47,169 nt of DNA, taken from positions 1-47,169 of the forward strand of contig JAPLTF010000042.1 in the NCBI GenBank assembly GCA_026398275.1. The letters run 5' to 3'. Source of the DNA: Verrucomicrobiota bacterium. Lineage in GTDB: Bacteria > Verrucomicrobiota > Verrucomicrobiia > Chthoniobacterales > Terrimicrobiaceae. Position numbers and translations under genes: made by a program. Below, piece after piece: positions 7,128-11,844 of the stretch. Numbering within the stretch: position 1 is the stretch's first letter; each line of letters begins with the position of its first letter. The notes under the pieces are model-generated. The model was not told the DNA's origin. It saw only the letters and a list, made by a program, of their open reading frames with translations, and did not search any database.

Positions 7128-7252
7128 CGGGAGTAGATTCGCCCAGCTAAACGGGCTGCTCATGGCCTGCCTGGATCATGCTCGGACGGATCGCCTTCAA
7201 TGACTGCCCTTGGAGGACAGCGGCTGCCGCCGATCTTCCGAGCCGCCGGAAA

Positions 7253-8131
7253 TCAAACCTCAAGCGGTTGGCCGGTGCCGTGAGCAGGCCGGTGCCCTGG
7301 GTCGCGAGTGTTGTCCTCCGGGCATACAAGGCAGGTTTGTCGATTCCTGGCTCCCAGTTTTCGCAACTTTCCCGTCAGCACGTCGAATTTCACTTCCTCG
7401 GGACCGTGTTCGGCGAGGGTGGCCTTGAGCAGTTCGACGCTTGCATCGATGGCAGGGTCACCCTTGAAGGGGGATATGATGAGGGGCCGTCCGATTTTTA
7501 TCGAAGCGACAAACTTTTTCGCCCAACCGGCAGCATCCTCATAGTCAGGGGCGGCAACTGGCATCAGTTTTCCAGAACCGTGGAGCATCTGAACCTTGGA
7601 GGCGGACGGCATCCCGGGAAGTGAAAGCGCCGCGTCTTTCCAAAGGTGGTCAAAAAGAAGGCCCCCGCAGTTTCGTGGGATCGATGGCAGCAGCATTTCC
7701 ATCTCGGCTTTCTGCGTATTTGTGGAAGCAAATCTGGGCGCTCTCGTTGGATCGGACTGGCGGACGAGGGAGGGTGCGGAAAGCAAGACCAGCGGGCTGG
7801 CATTGGCGGAGCAGACTTCGGAAACGCCTTCCAGAATCTCATGGTAGAGTCGGCTCCAGTGCCAGATTTCGCGGCCGATAAAGAATACGGGGAGCCCCCT
7901 GACATGCTTCGAGCGGGAAGCGGCCGGGTAAAATCTCCCGTTGGGGCTCTGCCAGACAACGCCCTCGGTGCCGAGGTCGCGCAGGATCCGGAATACCGTC
8001 GAGGGGTGAAGCTGAAACTCTTTACCGAGAATCTCCAGCGTGGGCAGGCAATCCTCGGACGACAACCCTGCAACCATGTCGACCAGTCGGGCGCGGGCGT
8101 GGCGGGCGTGCAGGGTGGGCTTGCGCGGCAT
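7253..8131 (-). CDS. Winged-helix transcriptional regulator with LacI-like sensor region
   Basis: 292 aa from the ATG at 8131 (MPRKPTLHARHARARLVDMV); a longer frame from 8191 would run into the divergent promoter. The N-terminus reads as a GntR-like winged helix: TLEILGKEFQLHPSTVFRILRDLG is the recognition-helix region and GVVWQSPNGRFYP the wing. The remaining 200 residues alternate beta strands and helices in the manner of periplasmic-binding-protein/LacI sensors, but are divergent. It is transcribed divergently from the sugar nucleotidyltransferase gene, with an inverted repeat in the 84-bp gap, so I infer that it controls that operon and itself. The last 30 residues, polar and rich in Pro and Gly, may be an unstructured tail. 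Ligand unknown. Confidence 0.75.
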   Translation of the reverse strand: MPRKPTLHARHARARLVDMVAGLSSEDCLPTLEILGKEFQLHPSTVFRILRDLGTEGVVWQSPNGRFYPAASRSKHVRGLPVFFIGREIWHWSRLYHEILEGVSEVCSANASPLVLLSAPSLVRQSDPTRAPRFASTNTQKAEMEMLLPSIPRNCGGLLFDHLWKDAALSLPGMPSASKVQMLHGSGKLMPVAAPDYEDAAGWAKKFVASIKIGRPLIISPFKGDPAIDASVELLKATLAEHGPEEVKFDVLTGKLRKLGARNRQTCLVCPEDNTRDPGHRPAHGTGQPLEV

Positions 8132-8161
8132 GAAGATACCACTGCCAGGTCGGCGTTCTAT

Positions 8162-8187
8162 TTGCAATAAGAAAGCACTTTGCACAA
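8162..8187. promoter_or_regulatory. Inverted repeat in the divergent regulator/nucleotidyltransferase promoter
   Basis: The gap between the two divergent starts (8132-8215) contains TTGCAATAAGAAAGC followed by ACTTTGCACAA. TGCAA and TTGCA form the outer arms, and AAAG/CTTT near the centre form inner arms. The position and dyad symmetry fit an operator for the adjacent winged-helix/LacI-like regulator. This is read from sequence; binding is inferred. Confidence 0.4.
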
Positions 8188-8215
8188 TCACCCTGCCGAT
8201 GTGAAATTAACGGAT

Positions 8216-9136
8216 ATGAGTCTGACATTACTGGTCCTGGCTGCGGGAATGGGCAGCCGATACGGGGGACTGAAACAGATCGACCCGGTTGGCCCGTCTG
8301 GGGAATTCGTTCTCGATTACTCCGTTCACGATGCGCTCTGGGCGGGCTTTGACCGGGTTGTCTTTGTGATCCGGCGGGACTTCGAGGAGGAATTCCGGCG
8401 GGTGGTAATTTCCCGATACGAGAAGACGATGGATGTCGATGTCGTCTATCAGGAACGGAAGGATTTGCCGGAACCCCACGTTTGTCCCCCGGGGCGGGAA
8501 AAACCATGGGGCACCGGACATGCAATCTGGGCTGCCAGGCGGGCGATTGAGACTCCCTTTTTGGTCGTCAACGCGGACGATTTCTACGGCATGGAGGCAT
8601 TCTCGAGAATAGCCCTGTTTCTCAAGGGAGCTGGAGGCAAGGGTGGTCTCGGGATGGGCATGGTGGCGTATCCGCTGCGCAACACGCTTTCCGAGCATGG
8701 GGCCGTCTCGCGAGGGATTTGTGATGTGACTCCGGACAATCTTCTCAAGAGCGTCGAGGAGCATACGGGGATCGTTCGCAAAGACGGACACATCGAGGGA
8801 ACCGACACAAGCGGGGCTGTCCGGGCACTGACAGGCAGCGAGCCGGTTTCCATGAATTTCTGGGCGTTCACGCCGGAAGTATTTTCTCAGTTGGAGAAAT
8901 GCCTCTGCTCATTTCTCGACTCGGGGGGGAAAGAGAACCCGAAGTCGGAGTTCTATATCCCGAGCGCGGTGAGTGAAATCATCGCTTCGGGTGCGGCTCC
9001 GGCTTCGGTGATTCCCACGACGGGACGCTGGTTCGGCGTGACCTACCGTGAGGACCGGGAGGCGGTCACTGCAACTTTCTCGGAACTCGTCAGGCAAGGC
9101 CTCTACAAAACCCCGCTCTGGAGCCACGCATCATGA
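8216..9136 (+). CDS. Sugar-1-phosphate nucleotidyltransferase
   Basis: 306 aa from the ATG at 8216 (MSLTLLVLAAGMGSRYGG); the in-frame ATG at 8180 would overlap the operator region. The N-terminal signature LVLAAGMGSRYGGLKQIDP binds the nucleotide, GTGHAIWAAR follows, and VVNADDFYG holds the metal-binding Asp pair. The fold is the NTP_transferase Rossmann domain without an acyltransferase extension. It transfers a nucleotidyl group to a sugar 1-phosphate. Immediately downstream (stop/start ATGA overlap) is an N-acetylhexosamine-kinase-like gene, then an epimerase. This is the arrangement of a salvage route in which the kinase makes the sugar 1-phosphate and this enzyme activates it. The nucleotide and sugar cannot be read from the sequence. 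Confidence 0.88.
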   Translation: MSLTLLVLAAGMGSRYGGLKQIDPVGPSGEFVLDYSVHDALWAGFDRVVFVIRRDFEEEFRRVVISRYEKTMDVDVVYQERKDLPEPHVCPPGREKPWGTGHAIWAARRAIETPFLVVNADDFYGMEAFSRIALFLKGAGGKGGLGMGMVAYPLRNTLSEHGAVSRGICDVTPDNLLKSVEEHTGIVRKDGHIEGTDTSGAVRALTGSEPVSMNFWAFTPEVFSQLEKCLCSFLDSGGKENPKSEFYIPSAVSEIIASGAAPASVIPTTGRWFGVTYREDREAVTATFSELVRQGLYKTPLWSHAS

Positions 9137-10231
9137 ACACAAATCTCTCCACCGTCTTTCAGAATTTCCAGATTCTCGGATCCCTGCTGGAAAGCGCCCC
9201 CTACGGCAACGGGCATATCAACGACACTATAGTTGCGGCGTTCAGCCAGGCTGGAACACGGGTGCGATATATTTTCCAGCGTATCAACGGGCGGATTTTC
9301 ACAAATCCGGAAACGCTGATGGATAATATCCTTCGCGTGACCAGCGAGGCCCAGCATCAGTTGGTCAAGGCGGGTGTGCCGGATGCTTCGCGGCGGGCGC
9401 TGAGTGTGATTCCCGCAAGTGACGGAAAGCCATTCCACAAAGACGGGGAAGGCCGATATTGGAGGTGCTACCCGTTCATCGAAGGCGCCCGGACCTACGA
9501 CATTATTCAGAACCCCCGACAGGCCTATGAGGCGGCACGGGCTTTCGGTGAGTTTCAGAGGCATATCGCCGGGCTGGAAGGGCCACGCCTCCACGAAACG
9601 ATCCCGAATTTCCACAACACGCGAAGCCGGCTTGAACGTCTCAAGGAAGTGGCTGCGGTCGATCCGCATCGACGGCTCGCCTCTGCAGCCCCGGAGTGGA
9701 AGTTCATTCTTGAGCGGGAGAGACTGGTCGATGTCCTGCTTAACTTACAGGCAGAGGGACTCATCCCGGAGCGAGTGACCCACAACGACACGAAGCTCAA
9801 CAACGTCATGATCGACGATTCGACGGAGACAGGGATTTGCGTGATCGATCTCGATACAGTGATGCCCGGGCTGGCGCTCTACGACTTCGGGGACATGGTG
9901 CGCACGGCCACGAGCCCGGCTGCGGAGGACGAGACCGATCTCTCCAAAGTCCGCATGCAGATGCCGATGTTTCAGGCCCTGGTCCGGGGATATCTCTCAA
10001 CAGCGGGGGCATTTCTCAACGACGCGGAAAAGGCTCATCTCGCGTTTTCCGGGAAACTCATCGCTCTGGAGATCGGAATCCGGTTTTTGACCGACTATCT
10101 GGAGGGAGACATCTATTTCAAAACCAACCAACCACAACCTCGACCGATGCCGGACCCAACTGGCACTGGTGAAGAGCATCGAGGAGCAGGAAGAAGCGAT
10201 GAACGCTTTTGTCCGGGAGGGTGCACGATGA
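9133..10231 (+). CDS. N-acetylhexosamine 1-kinase-like phosphotransferase (APH fold), with frameshift
   Basis: An anomeric kinase of the aminoglycoside-phosphotransferase fold. PYGNGHINDTIV is the glycine loop, HNDTKLNNVMID (about residue 217) the catalytic loop and VIDLDTVMPG plus YDFGDMVR the metal block, all as in NahK. After IYFKTN (10114-10131) the reading frame runs on into the epimerase as one 680-codon frame, but this is not the native end. In the +1 frame from 10133 the sequence continues as HNLDRCRTQLALVKS and ends AMNAFVREGAR at the TGA 10229-10231, the expected NahK-like C-terminus. A 1-base or 4-base indel in the (AACC)3 run at 10122-10133 explains it. The restored stop overlaps the epimerase ATG as ATGA. 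The indel could be real, phase-variable or a sequencing error. Confidence 0.82.
10122..10133. repeat. (AACC)3 tetranucleotide run at the kinase frameshift
   Basis: Three tandem AACC units, followed two bases later by another AACC. Gain or loss of one unit changes frame by one base, which is the shift needed to reconnect the two halves of the kinase. Confidence 0.8.
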
Positions 10232-11175
10232 AGGTTCTTGTCACGGGCGGCAGCGGATTCATCGGCAGCCATGTCGTCGAGCATTACCAGGATGTGGCGG
10301 AAGTGGTCGTTCTTGACGACCTGCGCACGGGGCACCGGAAAAATCTCGAGGGTCTGAAGTGCCGCTTTGTTGAAGGCTCCATTCTGGACCGTGCGCTTGT
10401 GGACGAGGTCATGCAGGGAGTGGATTACGTGATCCACCTGGCAGCCCTCGTGAGCGTGCCCGAATCCATGTCCATGCCTGGGGAAACCGTGAACATCAAT
10501 GTTCATGGGCTCCTGAATGTCCTCGAATCCGCCAGGAGCCATGGAGTTAAAAAACTCTGCTTCGCGAGTTCCGCAGCAGTTTACGGCGAGAATCCGATCC
10601 AGCCCAAAGTGGAAACGATGGCCCCTGATCCCAGGAGTCCCTATGCGATCACCAAGCTCGACGGTGAGTATTACTGCGGGCTTTACGCCCGTGAAGGTTG
10701 GCTTTCGACAGCTTGCCTCAGGTTCTTCAATGTCTTCGGCCCTAGGCAGGACCCGAATAGTGCCTACGCTGCCGCAGTGCCCATTTTCCTGCATCGCGCC
10801 AGGAACAACGAGCCGATCACGATTTATGGCGATGGGGGCCAGACGCGCGACTTTATCTACGTCAAGGATATCGTCGGGGCGCTCGCATTCGCTGCCGAAA
10901 CTCCTGAAGCGCAAGGGGTCTTCAACGCGGGGTATGGATCGGCATTAACGATTGGCGAGCTGGTGCAGGAAATTCTCAAACTAACTGGTTCTCATTCCGA
11001 AATCCTACATGCGCCGGTCCGTCCAGGCGACATCCGCCACTCCACGTCGGATCCCCATAAGCTGATGCAAGCCGGGTGGAAGCCCCGATTTGATGTTCCC
11101 TCAGGACTGAAGCACCTAGCGATGCCTGCTGGGGTCGCGCCTATTTTATGGCCTGCTTCGTCTCATGGACTCTAG
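10228..11175 (+). CDS. NAD-dependent UDP-glucose 4-epimerase-like protein
   Basis: 315 aa from the ATG at 10228, which overlaps the restored stop of the kinase. MKVLVTGGSGFIGSHVVEH is the Rossmann GxxGxxG motif; the catalytic Ser and the YxxxK motif (YAITKLDGEYYC) are in the expected places. VIHLAALVSVPES, CLRFFNVFGPRQDP and TRDFIYVKDIVGA are extended-SDR epimerase blocks. It would interconvert UDP-Glc/Gal or UDP-GlcNAc/GalNAc for the kinase and nucleotidyltransferase upstream. The last 20 residues (after SGLKHLA) do not look like the usual helix that ends this family, so the C-terminus may be altered by an indel near 11120. In this window the gene is in frame with the kinase because of the upstream frameshift, giving a false fusion. 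Confidence 0.88.
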   Translation: MKVLVTGGSGFIGSHVVEHYQDVAEVVVLDDLRTGHRKNLEGLKCRFVEGSILDRALVDEVMQGVDYVIHLAALVSVPESMSMPGETVNINVHGLLNVLESARSHGVKKLCFASSAAVYGENPIQPKVETMAPDPRSPYAITKLDGEYYCGLYAREGWLSTACLRFFNVFGPRQDPNSAYAAAVPIFLHRARNNEPITIYGDGGQTRDFIYVKDIVGALAFAAETPEAQGVFNAGYGSALTIGELVQEILKLTGSHSEILHAPVRPGDIRHSTSDPHKLMQAGWKPRFDVPSGLKHLAMPAGVAPILWPASSHGL

Positions 11176-11199
11176 TATACATCGAGTCCTGCACACTTC

Positions 11200-11844
11200 A
11201 TGACAACCTGCCGACGTTTTTTTGGCGCGACCGCCGTCTTGGCGGCCGTATTGGCGGCAATGGCCTGGTTTCAAGATGCGATTTCCAGGCCGGACATGTC
11301 GGGATTCGATCCACAGGAGATGGGCCGCTTGGAATCTGCCATGTGGCGGAGCTACTACGAAGGACACTGGCTTCAACTCGCGCGCCAAACGATGAAGGGG
11401 GCCTGTGGGCAGTATCGGTTTTCGTGGTGGGACGGAGCTCGTTCGTCTCTGCACGCGGCGCGGGCGGCGCTGTTCTTCCGCAAAAATACCGATGACCCGA
11501 GGTGCCTGCCGGAGTTGGAGCAATACTACGCAATTATTTCAAAAGCGACTGGCCAGCATTTTGATGTCCGCGCGGCAGCCGCACTGGAATTGAAATGGTG
11601 GAAAGAAAGGCGCCGCAGCGTCACCCCAAAAGACTACGCCAGGACCATCGCTCGGGCGACGGCACTTGTTTACGGGATGCCGGAGGAGACGCTGCTGCCC
11701 GCAGCCAGGATGCGGGCGGAGGCGATGGCCTACCGCGACGCCCGGCGGGACGGAAAAATGACCGACGCCGACTGGCAGGAAATCGCCCGCCAACTTATGA
11801 TGGCTTATGCCACGCTGAAGGAGGCCGTGACAAATGGCCGGTGA
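11200..11844 (+). CDS. Membrane-anchored protein of unknown function
   Basis: 214 aa. One N-terminal hydrophobic segment (FFGATAVLAAVLAAMAWF, about 7-24) suggests an inner-membrane anchor with the rest in the periplasm. The remainder is helical, rich in Arg, Ala and Trp (FFRKNTDDPRCLPELEQYY, LELKWWKERRRS), with no motif I recognise. The stop overlaps the next gene by 11 bases, so it is very likely co-translated with the DUF2236/MpaB protein, and pairs with it in function. Nothing links it to the carbohydrate operons. Confidence 0.6.
   Translation: MTTCRRFFGATAVLAAVLAAMAWFQDAISRPDMSGFDPQEMGRLESAMWRSYYEGHWLQLARQTMKGACGQYRFSWWDGARSSLHAARAALFFRKNTDDPRCLPELEQYYAIISKATGQHFDVRAAAALELKWWKERRRSVTPKDYARTIARATALVYGMPEETLLPAARMRAEAMAYRDARRDGKMTDADWQEIARQLMMAYATLKEAVTNGR

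Follow-up and report, generated by a model that had tools for sequence, protein, structure and literature searches.

The closest described counterpart of the kinase studied here is the N-acetylhexosamine 1-kinase NahK of Bifidobacterium longum (PDB IDs: 4ocu and 4wh1). An intact paralogue in the same genome resembles NahK in sequence and predicted fold over its full length, whereas the copy under study lacks the C-terminal helices in frame; its substrate is predicted from sequence. The kinase adjoins an epimerase gene, a feature shared with the NahK-GalT-GalE gene cluster (PMC8106489), but the transferase of the present cluster resembles NTP_transf and GlmU types, and its identity as a GalT is putative. 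Two further kinds of system bear on the disrupted reading frame of this kinase. Singleton frameshifted genes and recent indel pseudogenes (PMC3711429) share with it a frame transition confined to one genome, intact homologues and no conserved site; here, in contrast, the shifted frame is that of the next gene, so that a fusion results instead of a truncation. Phase-variable tetranucleotide-repeat genes of host-adapted bacteria likewise carry a tract at a frame transition, but the present tract has three copies, is absent from relatives and has the wrong spacing arithmetic. The lesion is best read as a recent frameshifting indel in a gene of the NahK family, and many such cases have been described.

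The window, a DNA stretch of 47,169 nucleotides, is contig C47 of a 4.66-Mb draft genome from an uncultured verrucomicrobial bacterium, in 117 contigs (98.7% complete, 3.84% estimated contamination). Its kinase has its nearest named relatives in Chthoniobacterales and other Verrucomicrobia metagenome genomes. A reverse-strand HTH-type regulator is followed on the forward strand by a nucleotidyl transferase, a NahK-like kinase and a GalE-like epimerase, with the following features:

7147–7311, reverse strand: C-terminal part of the regulator, TLATQGTGLLTAPANRLRFDFRRLGRSAAAAVL..., shifted to a different frame (homologue comparison)
7253–8191, reverse strand: divergent HTH-type regulator, frame-broken (homologue comparison)
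8216–9136, forward strand: sugar-nucleotide (NTP) transferase that begins the cluster, seemingly intact (weak NTP_transf_3/GlmU-type matches)
9133–10122, forward strand: NahK-like anomeric sugar kinase (APH fold), residues 1–330, frame intact up to ...EGDIYFK (Pfam APH, 4ocu match)
10122–10134, forward strand: (AACC)3 tract, AACCAACCAACC(A), three AACC copies (sequence reading, homologue spacing comparison)
10123–10227, forward strand: accidental 35-residue linker of the fused frame, TNQPQPRPMPDPTGTGEEHRGAGRSDERFCPGGCT (ORF translation; no homologue counterpart)
10133–10231, forward strand: displaced C-terminal tail of the kinase with its own TGA, +1 frame (G003 comparison; NahK 4ocu alignment via the intact paralogue)
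10228–11175, forward strand: NAD-dependent sugar-nucleotide epimerase (GalE-like) with its own ATG (Pfam Epimerase, E=1.2e-62)

The transferase is 68% identical to the gene at the same place upstream of the kinase in genome G001. A second transferase copy, 55% identical, is present in the same genome on contig C78 (L120, G000:C78:19240–20136). This contig carries no kinase match, and the stop within L120 sits at the C-terminal end of the match and looks like a normal stop.

The body of the kinase belongs to a NahK-like family by its domain (Pfam APH, E=1.7e-19), and its catalytic part is similar to N-acetylhexosamine 1-kinase 4ocu (E=2.4e-67); by sequence, its solved relatives are N-acetylhexosamine 1-kinases only. 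The intact paralogue, which lies on contig C36, matches NahK with an E value of 1.1e-75, and its tail aligns up to NahK residue 371. In the predicted model of this paralogue (pLDDT 94), which superimposes on the NahK structures with TM scores of 0.88–0.95 over the full length, the tail forms two confidently predicted helices (336–353 and 355–366). The activity of NahK-like kinases, C1 phosphorylation of GlcNAc/GalNAc, is putative here. Across 36 aligned homologues, the tail has three invariant residues (N337, R340 and Q344) and four nearly invariant ones (H336, D339, R342 and V348). The corresponding family motif, FK-x5-HN-x2-R-x3-Q, is absent from the open reading frame of the window kinase and is found only in the +1 frame. 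There, in agreement with the original prediction, the C-terminus is intact on direct reading: it runs as HNLDRCRTQLALVKSIEEQEEAMNAFVREGAR-stop from 10133 to 10228, and its TGA (10229–10231) overlaps the ATG of the epimerase (10228–10230). Relative to G003, the nearest relative, 29 of the 32 displaced residues are identical, and 12 of the 16 differences fall at third codon positions. A kinase that lacks the two C-terminal helices would probably be inactive or unstable.

The position and size of the lesion follow from a spacing that is conserved in the family. FK and HN (or QN) are separated by five residues (15 nt) in about 90 homologues that range from Verrucomicrobia to Acidobacteria; in the window, this spacer (10123–10132) is 10 nt long, a net loss of five bases. 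The same difference is seen against G003, whose DNA is 78% identical and whose kinase is 81.5% identical: the sole gap in 1,925 aligned bp is one of five bases, and it lies at the spacer. Homologues are intact, the lesion is private to one genome, and conserved residues are lost from the frame. From these sequence comparisons, the lesion is read as a frameshift specific to this lineage, in which one of the genome's two full kinase copies lost a net five bases (probability roughly 0.65).

Beyond the lesion, the fused frame reads ...LEGDIYFK TNQPQPRPMPDPTG... and, as had been predicted, the kinase frame continues through (AACC)3 into the epimerase: a single open frame spans 9133–11175 and encodes 680 aa of kinase, linker and epimerase. 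The proposal that a frameshift has created a false kinase–epimerase fusion is supported, and none of the approximately 90 homologues has the same frame or such a fusion. In the linker, the two tail helices are replaced by 35 residues of out-of-frame tail sequence that precede the epimerase methionine; no counterpart of the linker is present in any homologue. The ATGA junction is common to C36, G001, G003, G007 and other relatives. In these relatives, ribosomes would end the kinase at the TGA and start the epimerase one base back. In the window, the five-base loss would place ribosomes in the epimerase frame before the junction, and they would read on into the epimerase as a fusion. Because the kinase stop and the epimerase start overlap as ATGA, the frame that is entered coincides exactly with the epimerase frame. 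The epimerase matches the GalE model below the curated cut-off and is 86–91% identical to its relatives. On direct reading, an SD-like sequence, GGAGGGTGCACGATG, precedes its ATG, with GGAGG at 10216–10220. The epimerase would still be made as the C-terminal half of the fusion; its own ATG, with the GGAGG site, probably serves as a second start. The likely outcome is a lost kinase and a kept epimerase. The locus illustrates how, in ATGA-coupled genes, a single frameshift can fuse the two genes and yet keep the downstream gene translated.

Could the fusion instead be a new bifunctional protein, expressed and kept, with a kinase that works without its tail? Its frame is open over 680 aa, and two Opitutae-type genomes encode in-frame fusions of this kinase family with an amino-sugar enzyme encoded downstream: at L034:2911–6039 and L036:2836–5988, a NahK-like kinase is fused to a glucosamine-6-phosphate deaminase (NagB) and a PIG-L-like domain in proteins of ~1,020–1,050 aa. 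(A possible internal start is observed at the join in L036.) These fusions have another partner, occur in two genomes and keep the HN tail, which the window fusion has lost; their retention of the tail underlines that the join in the window is disruptive. Openness of the frame is no evidence of function either. The frame upstream of the epimerase has stops in G001, G003 and C36. In 29 of 90 homologues, the equivalent shifted frame happens by chance to stay open as far as the junction, so the in-frame join is likely to be a chance result. With no such fusion in ~90 homologues and a linker that consists of out-of-frame tail sequence, a working bifunctional enzyme is improbable, and we regard it as equally improbable that the ATGA overlap and the five-base loss fused two coupled genes in one step into an expressed and useful product, the birth of a gene fusion. 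Programmed +1 ribosomal frameshifting at the spacer, which would yield both a full kinase and the fusion, agrees with the continued conservation of the tail frame and with the plausibility of both products as proteins. Nevertheless, the site is not conserved, all other homologues encode the tail in frame, and a shift at this position would leave the spacer at least one residue short. On direct reading, AAA ACC AAC CAA CCA contains no +1 slippery motif familiar to us, and programmed frameshifting is the least probable of the readings considered.

The AACC tract had itself been put forward as a possible cause of the break, acting through slipped-strand mispairing in (AACC)n as an on–off switch of amino-sugar salvage. 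A three-copy tetranucleotide tract does lie exactly at the frame transition, and part of the predicted arithmetic stands: loss of one AACC copy brings the frame back, with a spacer of two residues. Gain of one copy does not restore the gene. The spacer measures 6 nt (in frame, two residues) with two copies, 10 nt with three, 14 nt (out of frame) with four and 18 nt (in frame, six residues) with five; no copy number gives 15 nt, and thus the conserved five-residue spacer is unreachable by slippage. Nor is the offset one repeat unit (+/-4), as had been supposed, since comparison with each homologue gives a net difference of −5 nt. No (AACC) array was found in the ~90 homologues examined. Because the spacing arithmetic fails and homologues lack the array, AACC slippage is rejected, and the role of the repeat as a cause or switch is not borne out. 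The three copies also contrast with the tetranucleotide tract of around 63 bp studied in PMC6889271. Tetranucleotide arrays of 12 nt are present in the window 5 times, against 0.8 expected under a Markov-1 model; the presence of four others (31537, 33354, 41817 and 45229), which are possibly codon-driven, also counts against a switch. To our knowledge, contingency genes do not typically encode cytosolic sugar kinases. Phase variation is therefore highly improbable, and the (AACC)3 tract most likely arose as a by-product of the 5-nt loss instead of causing it. As a guess, the ancestral sequence may have been ACC AAC CGG CCC AAC CAC; removal of GGCCC from between two CC pairs would leave what is read today. 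The locus shows that a short tandem repeat where a frame breaks can mimic a contingency locus, and that the conserved spacing of the family rules a switch out.

The main rival to a recent loss of function is an assembly or consensus error, in which the true chromosome would have a 15-nt spacer and the five bases would have been lost in assembling a draft that holds related copies of the locus. The draft is fragmented into 117 contigs with 3.84% estimated contamination, and related locus copies exist on contigs C36 and C7. The kinase is otherwise under strong purifying selection. Relative to G003, dN/dS is 0.097 for the kinase body and 0.046 for the tail, compared with 0.112 for the bodies of the intact G003 and C36 copies; neither body nor tail gives a dN/dS signal of relaxed selection against G003, with synonymous sites near saturation. 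Body and tail are thus conserved as in intact copies, which implies that the lesion is either very recent or an artefact of assembly. For singleton frameshifts validated by BLASTp, sequencing error is the expected cause in most cases (Antonov et al. 2013, PMC3711429). Against an error, a change of five bases outside a homopolymer is untypical of base calling, the C36 copy shares just 76% identity, and the spacer segment is missing from the C7 remnant. On overall inspection of the stretches examined, no obvious breaks are seen in the genes around the C36 copy or in the window's remaining large ORFs, and the adjacent regulator has an unrelated, larger deletion. The combination of a 5-nt change outside a homopolymer and an independent lesion in the regulator favours a real event. 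An assembly error is unlikely, though far less so than phase variation, a bifunctional fusion or programmed frameshifting, and a real loss of this kinase copy in the chromosome is probable.

The surroundings of the window kinase are consistent with such a loss. An intact kinase–epimerase pair is found elsewhere in the genome (C36:42631–44606, 76% identical in DNA), and the redundancy that this paralogue provides would make loss of the window kinase tolerable. The consequence here is biologically ordinary: one kinase copy would be lost and the other kept. In the regulator, ~44–59 nt are missing after CPEDN relative to homologues, near 7305–7311, and the frame is shifted; its conserved C-terminus carries on in another frame (7147–7311). 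The homologues used in this comparison are only about 43–50% identical. A further remnant of the locus lies on contig C7 of the same assembly, which derives from the same organism or from a close relative in the bin. Here (L115, G000:C7, 8903–10401), five collinear fragments match window 7208–11681 at 83–92% identity, namely 7208–7294, 8146–8239, 9090–9360, 10288–10348 and 11634–11681, with large deletions between them. Together, the broken regulator, the C36 paralogue and the C7 remnant point to a cluster in decay, and the sequences suggest that this amino-sugar kinase cluster is both redundant and decaying. Short overlaps at some of the junctions in the C7 remnant suggest microhomology deletions.

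Finally, in the kinase tree the window, C36 and G003 copies group together weakly, and the tree therefore gives no order of duplication. Two nearby kinase copies, one with YFH-IKRPGHNV and the other with YFK-THYPKQN, are also observed in the Kiritimatiellae-type genomes L063, L068, L070, L071 and L072.
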